The notes beneath the pieces are model-generated. The model saw only the letters and a program-made list of their open reading frames with translations. It was not told where the DNA came from and did no database searches. Source: Candidatus Planktophila sp. (GTDB lineage: Bacteria; Actinomycetota; Actinomycetes; Nanopelagicales; Nanopelagicaceae). Taken from it: a DNA stretch of 64,000 nt. The stretch lies in the NCBI GenBank assembly GCA_017858325.1, contig JAFMBT010000001.1, positions 1 through 64,000 on the forward strand, written 5' to 3'. Positions 54,855 through 57,035 of the stretch are shown piece after piece. Both the position numbers and the translations under genes were made by a program. The stretch's first letter is position 1; every line of letters begins with the position of its first letter.

Positions 54855-55469
54855 CTAGAAAGAGATCTTCTTCGCCTGATCTGGATCGGCTACAGCCAGC
54901 GCCACATCCTTCATAGTCAAACGACGATCCATGGCCGCCTTTTGAATCCACGAAAAGGCCTCCGGCTCGGTGAGATTGAGGGCGGTCATCAATATCCCCT
55001 TAGCTCTATCGATAATCTTTCGTGTCTCAAGTCTTTGGTGAAGATCTGCAACTTCCTCTGCCAGTGATCTCATCTGCAAGTGACGGCTGATTGCAATCTC
55101 TATCGCTGGAATAAGGTCATTAATCGTAAATGGCTTGAGCACATATGCCATTACTCCAGCATCGCGCGCGCGATCGACAAGTTCTCGCTGACTAAAGGCG
55201 GTAAGCATCAGAACTGGGCAGTAAGAGATGATCTCTTCCGCCGCGCTGATGCCATCTAGGATTGGCATTTTGACATCAAGAATTGCAAGATCTGGTTTGT
55301 ACTCTTTGACAAGATCAATCGCTTGCAGACCATCGGCTGCTTGGGCAAGAACTTCATAACCAGCTTCATTCAACATCTCGACAAGATCCATTCGGATCAA
55401 CGCTTCATCTTCGGCAACAACAATACGCACACGAGGTTTCTGTGAAGATTGGTGATCGACGTTGGTCAT
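54855..55469 (-). CDS. pdtaR: PdtaR-like response regulator with ANTAR RNA-binding domain
   Basis: Two-component regulator acting on RNA: ANTAR domains bind paired hairpins in nascent mRNAs and prevent termination. The 204-residue protein has a receiver domain (acidic pair Glu20-Asp21, phospho-acceptor Asp65 in ILDVKMP, Thr90, Lys112) and an ANTAR domain at about 135-195 (KIIDRAKGILMTALNLTEPEAFSWIQ). No sensor kinase (PdtaS) is adjacent. The ATG begins 2 positions beyond the 3' end of the upstream tRNA, leaving no room for a ribosome-binding site. Confidence 0.94.
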   Translation of the reverse strand: MTNVDHQSSQKPRVRIVVAEDEALIRMDLVEMLNEAGYEVLAQAADGLQAIDLVKEYKPDLAILDVKMPILDGISAAEEIISYCPVLMLTAFSQRELVDRARDAGVMAYVLKPFTINDLIPAIEIAISRHLQMRSLAEEVADLHQRLETRKIIDRAKGILMTALNLTEPEAFSWIQKAAMDRRLTMKDVALAVADPDQAKKISF

Positions 55470-55470
55470 G

Positions 55471-55543
55471 TGCCCCGAGTCGGATTCGAACCGACACTAT
55501 GCAGTGTTTGAGACTGCCCTCTCTACCGTTGGAGTACCGAGGC
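55471..55543 (-). tRNA. tRNA with CAA anticodon (predicted tRNA-Leu), class I shape
   Basis: A 73-base cloverleaf is visible: acceptor GCCTCGG / TCGGGGC with two G-T pairs and discriminator A73; D-arm CTC / GAG; anticodon stem GCAGT / ACTGC around loop CTCAAAC, anticodon CAA (reads UUG, Leu); variable region ATAGT, 5 bases; T-arm GTCGG-TTCGAAT-CCGAC. CCA is not encoded. Leucine tRNAs normally have a long class II variable arm, so either this is an unusual leucine isoacceptor or its charging differs from the codon table expectation. It sits between pyk and the pdtaR-like gene. Confidence 0.85.
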
Positions 55544-55589: not shown

Positions 55590-57029
55590 TTATCGGTAAG
55601 CGGGCGCTGCGCCTGCAACAGCATCACCCATACGGTGTACACGCATAGCATTTGTAGAGCCGGGAATTCCGGGAGGGGATCCCGCAACGATGATGACGCT
55701 GTCACCGATAGTAGTTCGTTTACTTTCTAGCAAGAGACCATCAACTTGCTTAACCATCTCATCGGTATGAGAGACAACTGGAGTGATCATCGGTTCAACG
55801 CCCCACGTTAACGCCAAGCGGTTATAGGTCCCATGGTCTGGAGTGAGAGCGAGAATAGGAATCGGTGAGCGAAGGCGAGACATGCGGCGAGCAGAATCTC
55901 CACTTTGAGTAAAGGCAACAAGAAATTTAGCTCCGACAATCGTTCCTACTTCTACAGCTGCCTTTGTGATCGCTCCACCTTTAGTACGAGGTTCGTGTTT
56001 TAACGGGCGAATTCTCTCGAGCCCGCCTTCTTCAGTCCGCTGGATAATCCGAGCCATCGTCTGCACTGCTTCAATCGCAAAATCTCCAACACTTGTTTCA
56101 CCTGAAAGCATGAGCGCATCTGCACCATCGAGTACAGCATTAGCGCAATCGGTCGCTTCTGCTCGAGTTGGCGTAGAGTTTGTAATCATTGAATCAAGCA
56201 TTTGGGTAGCCACGATGACAGGTTTTGCAGCATCGCGAGCGAGTTCGACACAACGCTTTTGAACCAATGGGACATCTTCTATAGGTAGTTCTACTCCGAG
56301 ATCACCTCGAGCCACCATAATCCCATCGAAGGCATCGACGATACTCACAAGATTTTCCACTGCTTGTGGTTTTTCAATCTTGGCTATCACCGGAACTCTA
56401 ATTCCCTCTTCATCCATAATTCGATGTACATCTTTAATATCTTCGGCGCTACGAACGAAAGATAAGGCGATAAAATCGGCTCCTACCTTAAGTCCCCAAC
56501 GAAGATCATCAATATCTTTCTCAGAAAGTGCTGGAACAGATACTGCAACACCAGGAAGATTAATACCCTTATTGTTGCTCACCGCACCTGGTTCGATTAC
56601 CTGAGTAATAACATCGTTACCAACTACGCGGGTCACCTCAACGGTAACTTTCCCATCATCAATCAAAATACGATCTCCTGGTTTGCAATCCCCAGGAAGC
56701 CCTTTGTAGGTAGTTCCCACTCGACCTTTACTACCTTCAATCTCATCTGTTGTAATGGTGAAGACATCTCCGCGCTCTAGATCGTGAGGACCATCTTTAA
56801 ATCGACCAAGGCGAATCTTTGGACCTTGTAAGTCAACAAGAATTGCAATGGGTGCACCCGCTTGCTTAGCGGCCGCACGAACCTGATCGAGCCGTTTCTG
56901 ATGCTCTACATACCCTCCATGAGAGAGATTCAAGCGAGCCATATTCATACCCGCTGCAATCAGCTCACGTATCTTTTCAGGAGATTCAACAGCTGGTCCT
57001 AGTGTGCAAACTATCTTCGCGCGGCGCAT
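55590..57029 (-). CDS. pyk: pyruvate kinase
   Basis: Converts phosphoenolpyruvate and ADP to pyruvate and ATP. The 479-residue protein begins MRRAKIVCTLGPA, has MNMARLNLSHG, the catalytic region VPVIAKIEKPQAVENL (Lys and Glu), MVARGDLGVELP and the C-terminal allosteric domain. I use the ATG at 57029: TAGGCT ends exactly 6 bases upstream, whereas an in-frame TTG two codons earlier would fall inside the spacer. Confidence 0.97.
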   Translation of the reverse strand: MRRAKIVCTLGPAVESPEKIRELIAAGMNMARLNLSHGGYVEHQKRLDQVRAAAKQAGAPIAILVDLQGPKIRLGRFKDGPHDLERGDVFTITTDEIEGSKGRVGTTYKGLPGDCKPGDRILIDDGKVTVEVTRVVGNDVITQVIEPGAVSNNKGINLPGVAVSVPALSEKDIDDLRWGLKVGADFIALSFVRSAEDIKDVHRIMDEEGIRVPVIAKIEKPQAVENLVSIVDAFDGIMVARGDLGVELPIEDVPLVQKRCVELARDAAKPVIVATQMLDSMITNSTPTRAEATDCANAVLDGADALMLSGETSVGDFAIEAVQTMARIIQRTEEGGLERIRPLKHEPRTKGGAITKAAVEVGTIVGAKFLVAFTQSGDSARRMSRLRSPIPILALTPDHGTYNRLALTWGVEPMITPVVSHTDEMVKQVDGLLLESKRTTIGDSVIIVAGSPPGIPGSTNAMRVHRMGDAVAGAAPAYR

Positions 57030-57035
57030 TTTCAA

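Follow-up and report, generated by a model that had tools for sequence, protein, structure and literature searches.

The window, by which we mean the whole stretch of 64,000 nucleotides of Candidatus Planktophila sp. DNA analysed here, contains a short-armed tRNA gene with a CAA anticodon that lies between two protein-coding genes (Table 1). The product of the upstream gene is presumably pyruvate kinase (pyk), and that of the downstream gene we take to be pdtaR, the name given in an earlier note on this DNA. The CCA end of the tRNA is only partly encoded (C74 at 55470).

Table 1. Genes and tRNA parts at the locus, in coordinates of the window
Feature	Position	Strand	Basis
Class I (short-armed) tRNA-Leu(CAA) gene, positions 1-73	55471..55543	minus	ARAGORN, RF00005, fold, sequence
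Anticodon CAA (34-36), for UUG	55508..55510	minus	sequence, ARAGORN
Variable region ATAGT (44-48), 5 nt, last base U48 able to pair with A15	55496..55500	minus	sequence, fold
D arm CUCCAACGGUAGAGAG, leucine-type: 3 bp, C13.A22 mismatch, A14, A15, G18G19, A20a, G21	55519..55534	minus	sequence, fold, G014 ortholog
Discriminator A73	55471	minus	sequence
pdtaR-like response regulator gene, 204 aa from ATG	54855..55469	minus	ORF position
Pyruvate kinase gene (presumed), upstream of tRNA	55590..57035	minus	ORF position

ARAGORN reads positions 55471-55543 as tRNA-Leu(caa), and the Rfam model RF00005 matches them over its full length (1-71) at 52.1 bits (E 2.6e-08; gathering score 29). The minimum-free-energy fold is a cloverleaf with an acceptor stem of 7 bp, a D stem of 3 bp (C10-G25, U11-A24 and C12-G23), an anticodon stem of 5 bp with the loop CTCAAAC, a variable region of 5 nt and a T stem of 5 bp. 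The D loop, AACGGUAG, holds G18G19 and A20a both in the window and in the ortholog from a complete, single-contig relative, G014. Sequence, ARAGORN, RF00005 and fold all bear out what the earlier note had described here, namely a CAA anticodon, an ATAGT variable region, a D arm of three pairs, A73 and an otherwise intact cloverleaf. The fold energy alone is weak and uninformative evidence, as it stands only 1.56 standard scores below that of shuffled sequences (z -1.56). A variable region of 4-5 nt and acceptor and T stems of 7/5 are the geometry of class I, and both are found here; at 5 nt, the variable region is short of the 10 nt or more of a class II arm. The 7/5 stems also rule out an allo-tRNA, which has an 8/4 or 9/3 body. 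Among 43 distinct short CAA tRNAs from host genomes, 846 of 860 stem-pair cells are kept and two or more Watson-Crick types occur at 16 of the 20 pairs. The variable region is 5 nt long in 42 of these sequences and A73 is present in 42, the remaining one having C73 as parsed here. A pseudogene or a gene in decay was dismissed on this covariation and conservation.

Leucine tRNA set, determinants and codon meaning

The family, a freshwater actinobacterial one, was sampled through 31 genomes of the Nanopelagicales, the window genome included, in which tRNAs were found by exact pattern. The short CAA form is present in all 31 and a short TAA form in 29. The earlier note had proposed checking for a class II tRNA-Leu(CAA) elsewhere in the genome; by pattern, a long-armed tRNA with a YAA anticodon occurs in none of the 31. 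Among 60 relatives, copies of full or nearly full length with 96-100% identity were present in 30 of the 36 same-genus genomes, many of which are incomplete, and the close named matches, among them L186 (Candidatus Planktophila versatilis) and L198 (a bin of the Nanopelagicales), point to the Nanopelagicales as judged by similarity of the tRNA and its neighbours. In the complete genome G014 all 41 RF00005 tRNA matches were located and read with ARAGORN. Its leucine tRNAs are TAG and GAG, which are long-armed, and TAA and CAA, which are short, with neither a long UUR tRNA nor a second CAA-anticodon tRNA among the 41 matches; the UUR codons therefore fall to tRNAs of class I and the CUN codons to tRNAs of class II. 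The suggestion in the earlier note of an atypical leucine isoacceptor for UUG is thus supported as to leucine but not as to atypical, the short form being the standard and sole CAA isoacceptor of its family (31/31), an outcome that the note had itself named as one that would refute it. In the window genome (G000; 1.34 Mb in 32 contigs) the TAG, GAG and short CAA leucine tRNAs were found, and a tRNA-Leu(UAA) was not found in the 32 contigs. This absence is most likely an assembly gap, because one contig ends just beyond a tRNA-Phe gene, at a point where G014 continues with Asp and Glu.

Other tRNA-like genes were noticed in the two genomes of the genus that were read, G000 and G014. Both carry a low-scoring Gly(acc)-like gene by ARAGORN with an encoded CCA (L033, G000:C11:2253-2324, and L124, G014:C1:1070867-1070938; 43.6 and 35.2 bits), and L033 is predicted to fold with an unusual anticodon arm whose loop is 3 nt long. 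Beside the ordinary Val(GAC) there are additional Val(GAC)-like tRNAs (L025, G000:C18:702-775; L114 and L117 in G014); position 37 in these is a pyrimidine or G, and those of G014 have a variable region of 6 nt.

In E. coli the leucine determinants are A73, A14, A15-U48, G18G19 and A20a, and the variable arm is dispensable in vitro (PMC9976931). The window tRNA has all of them, including the trans-Levitt pair A15-U48. In G014, A73, an open 13.22, A15-U48 and a D loop with AG at its end occur together in the four leucine tRNAs alone, long and short. A wider survey used the 823 of 899 distinct tRNAs from fetched loci that had sound stems. The full set in 233 of 233 pattern-matching short tRNAs is circular, because A14, A15, U48 and some of the D arm are set by the pattern itself, and the determinant set is therefore tested only by the 23 short leucine tRNAs that fall outside it. 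Thirteen of these 23 have the full set, as do 43 of 49 long leucine tRNAs, and it was found in none of 442 other short tRNAs and none of 47 Ser/Tyr tRNAs. The ten short leucine tRNAs that lack at least one determinant are mostly phage tRNAs; A15 and U48 are each present in 21 of the 23 and A73 in all.

LeuRS matches were obtained in all 14 genomes searched. Both the window genome and G014 have one full-length gene that includes the C-terminal part, and the match in G014 covers model positions 1-842 of 843. In G084 and G098 the matches are fragmentary and fall on more than one contig, which leaves copy number there unsettled. A search for a second or specialised LeuRS turned up a single full-length gene in the complete genomes covered. 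Two length types of LeuRS were seen in the class (L430-L459), one of 825-855 aa and one of 917-996 aa, the latter showing a break close to model position 142, and length type does not track tRNA form across these loci. Since the leucine determinant set and a full-length LeuRS are both present, charging of the short tRNA-Leu(CAA) with leucine by LeuRS is the simplest and most likely reading of the sequences.

The meaning of the codons was read from 31 pyk and 27 pdtaR loci of the genus, and the positions counted were those with a conservation of 90% or more among genomes that carry a long-armed CAA tRNA. TTA falls on conserved leucine in 151 of 151 cases and TTG in 136 of 136, a total of 287 of 287, these being cells from related genomes and not independent events. 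CUN codons in the same test are nearly always on conserved leucine too, and where conservation is poor in the pyk and pdtaR genes of the window, UUR codons are, as would be expected, also found opposite other residues. The earlier note had raised the possibility of charging with an amino acid other than leucine; if this went through a class I identity such as Met or Val, UUG would be reassigned or ambiguous. The class I geometry of the window tRNA could be taken in this way, and a human short tRNA-Leu-CAA is described as a mutated tRNA-Met, resembling tRNA-Met and possibly a silenced pseudogene (PMC8450103). The window tRNA is like the human one in having a CAA anticodon and no long arm, and differs from it in possessing the leucine core and in being conserved. 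However, the codon counts reject recoding or mis-charging, the window form is the sole CAA tRNA of its family, and not one of the 489 non-leucine tRNAs examined carries the leucine core set, so that the suggestion of the earlier note is not upheld and mis-charging is in our judgement very unlikely.

Distribution of the two forms and their shared locus

In a class survey of 296 phylogenetically related genomes with exact patterns, for which reversed-pattern controls gave no matches, the short CAA form was found in 140 genomes and the long CAA form in 64, and the short TAA form in 153 and the long TAA form in 40. None of the 296 genomes has both CAA forms and none of the 40 with a long TAA has a short TAA. 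Given the relatedness of these genomes, the P value for independence of the forms should not be read as a true probability. As 92 of the 296 show neither CAA form by these patterns, the exclusivity of the CAA forms rests on 204 genomes. At phylum level the short YAA pattern was present in 44 of 197 genomes. A scan of named genomes returned at least 119 stretches; 80 of 119 were read, and their 81 matches are all tRNA-Leu(taa) or tRNA-Leu(caa) with a class I body according to ARAGORN. The short-form records listed are mostly actinobacterial and come from Mycobacterium, Nocardia, Gordonia, Rhodococcus, Corynebacterium, Bifidobacterium, Nocardioides, Microbacterium, Streptomyces and others. A few of the matches listed bear non-actinobacterial labels (Planctomycetota, Rokubacteria, Chloroflexaceae, Deltaproteobacteria, Gemmobacter, Flavobacteriaceae and Christensenellaceae), records that are mostly metagenome bins in which contamination is possible. 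One Chloroflexaceae bin (L218) has a short TAA and a short CAA leucine tRNA about 250 bases apart on one strand. Viral contigs gave at least 120 pattern matches; among those listed, 94 are TAA, 25 CAA and 1 was not called, ARAGORN finding a short YAA leucine tRNA in 119 of 120. Some phage contigs also hold short-armed leucine tRNAs with TAG, CAG and AAG anticodons (L296, L313, L340, L365, L368, L375, L389, L405 and L408).

The two forms occupy one chromosomal place. At the short CAA loci of the class sample, pdtaR adjoins in 30 of 30 with the tRNA on the opposite strand (L125-L154; 27 of the 30 from one family), and the same arrangement is seen at eight further short CAA loci (L076-L083); at L216, L221 and L288 pdtaR is on the same strand as the tRNA. 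Of the long CAA loci read, pdtaR adjoins in 26 of 27 and pyk in 1. At least eight genera hold both CAA forms (g17, g19, g39, g42, g46, g67, g73 and g77). In g46, an 85-nt long form (L410) and a 75-nt short form (L426) both lie between pyk and pdtaR in the same orientation, with flanking genes that are 82% (pyk) and 84% (pdtaR) identical; the T arm is common to the two tRNAs, which are unlike each other in the acceptor stem, the D arm and the variable region.

One explanation for this alternation is that the short form is a real tRNA-Leu that was made repeatedly as local long-armed tRNAs lost the arm by a simple deletion, and the common locus, much of the T arm and the leucine-type D loop of both forms would fit this. 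Against it, short and long host forms differ coherently at positions 4, 5, 9, 12-23 and 13, of which 4, 5 and 9 are not fixed by the patterns. In addition, a tree of tRNA bodies (arm and anticodon removed; host sequences of uniform length; 163 distinct bodies, 30 long and 133 short) places the 30 long forms in one clade with a single short intruder and a support of 0.99, although a shared structural constraint could mimic this split. Repeated simple arm deletion is thus disfavoured and we consider it unlikely. The coherent body differences and the split in the tree point instead to a second tRNA type that was swapped in or out. Such swaps at a fixed locus probably took place several times in actinobacteria and may have gone in either direction.

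Phage may have had a part in the switching between short and long tRNAs at the CAA locus, an idea that we offer as a tentative and rather doubtful one. In its favour are the exclusive alternation of the forms, their shared locus and the short YAA leucine tRNAs in viral contigs, and mycobacteriophages are reported to integrate at tRNA-Leu-CAA, one of them bringing its own copy (PMC10865867). No prophage was caught at the site of a switch among the loci read.

The tRNA gene and the pdtaR transcript

Another possibility, put forward in the earlier note, is a tRNA-like element whose main use is to mark the pdtaR mRNA for processing; it would then be cut out by RNase P and RNase Z and have little role in translation. 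Several features of the genus agree with this. pyk, the tRNA and pdtaR share a strand, pyk and the tRNA being 46 nt apart in the window, and a search near the tRNA and pdtaR gave neither a promoter-like nor a terminator-like site. The pdtaR ATG directly follows C74 in the window, and in 23 of 29 readable genus loci it comes right after the encoded A73-C74 (window 55467-55471; L035-L064, L075). As the ATG abuts the tRNA and no promoter-like or terminator-like site is seen, release of the tRNA could create the 5' end of the pdtaR mRNA in this genus, and a side role as mRNA punctuation is possible there. However, tRNA and pdtaR lie on opposite strands in most other genera, where a long-armed tRNA-Leu(CAA) stands in for the short one, and G014 lacks any other CAA-anticodon tRNA. 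A role in processing only is rejected on this orientation and replacement, and the proposal of the earlier note that the element is mainly a processing signal has, in our view, very little left to recommend it. The link to pdtaR is local and does not explain the tRNA, because both its place and its form persist at loci of opposite orientation. At the position expected for the ribosome-binding site of pdtaR lies the 3' strand of the acceptor stem, GGGG or GAGG.

A class I tRNA-Leu in bacteria

We therefore return to the reading of the gene as a functional elongator, a tRNA-Leu(CAA) with the shape of class I that would be charged by LeuRS through a shared core and would read UUG as leucine, which we hold with high confidence. 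We propose that LeuRS recognises the short tRNA by the core of bacterial leucine tRNAs (A73, A14, A15-U48, G18G19, A20a, the 3-bp D stem and the open 13.22), so that the long variable arm would be dispensable. The tRNA would then decode UUG as leucine, activity in translation being likely from its sequence, and together with the equally short tRNA-Leu(UAA) it would make up the whole UUR-leucine decoding set of the family. The short form is a distinct tRNA type, marked by A9, C12-G23, C13, an acceptor rich in C at C4/C5 and AGU in the variable loop. This type has probably replaced, or been replaced by, the long-armed type at one chromosomal locus several times in actinobacteria.

Comparison with known leucine tRNAs brings out both likeness and difference. 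Bacterial class II tRNA-Leu, including the tRNA-Leu(UAA) of Streptomyces bldA, has the same CAA or UAA anticodons, A73, A14, A15-U48, G18G19, A20a-G21, 3-bp D stem and mismatched 13.22, and its CAA member lies at the same pdtaR/pyk locus; the short form differs in lacking the long arm, in having A9 not G9, C12-G23 not G12-C23 and C13 not G13, and in its acceptor stem. A short variable region is also found in animal mitochondrial tRNA-Leu(UUR), the charging of which rests on A73 and A14 (PMC9976931), but the tRNA described here belongs to bacterial chromosomes and phages, has an intact cloverleaf with D and T loops and is served by a bacterial LeuRS. In an accessory mycobacterial tRNA cluster, one tRNA-Leu(TAG) has a short variable loop where the authors note that a larger one is expected (PMC6582537). 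It is likewise a short-armed leucine tRNA in an actinobacterium, but one with a TAG anticodon, accessory and extra beside a normal copy, whereas the window form is the sole chromosomal CAA isoacceptor.

A 2023 review, 'The tRNA identity landscape for aminoacylation and beyond', describes tRNA-Leu as long-armed everywhere but in animal mitochondria (PMC9976931). A review of non-canonical tRNAs places tRNA-Leu in class II, with no bacterial short form mentioned in the accessible portion of its text (PMC7609411), and one CAA gene per Streptomyces genome has been reported, its shape passing without comment in the portion accessible (PMC4932002). A search of titles and abstracts in the open-access literature found no class I bacterial chromosomal tRNA-Leu given as a general form, though subscription journals and databases may have it. 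The short form is ordinary within its own family and unexpected against the textbook rule, and we regard it as a bona fide, widespread class I variant of bacterial tRNA-Leu that we have not found described as such in that open-access literature. Its occurrence across actinobacteria and in many phage contigs contradicts the rule that tRNA-Leu has a long arm, and tRNA-seq and annotation pipelines that assume such an arm may misassign short leucine tRNAs. The genera that hold both forms provide a natural test of what LeuRS reads, and the locus itself provides a natural example of a tRNA that changes class while its place in the chromosome stays fixed.
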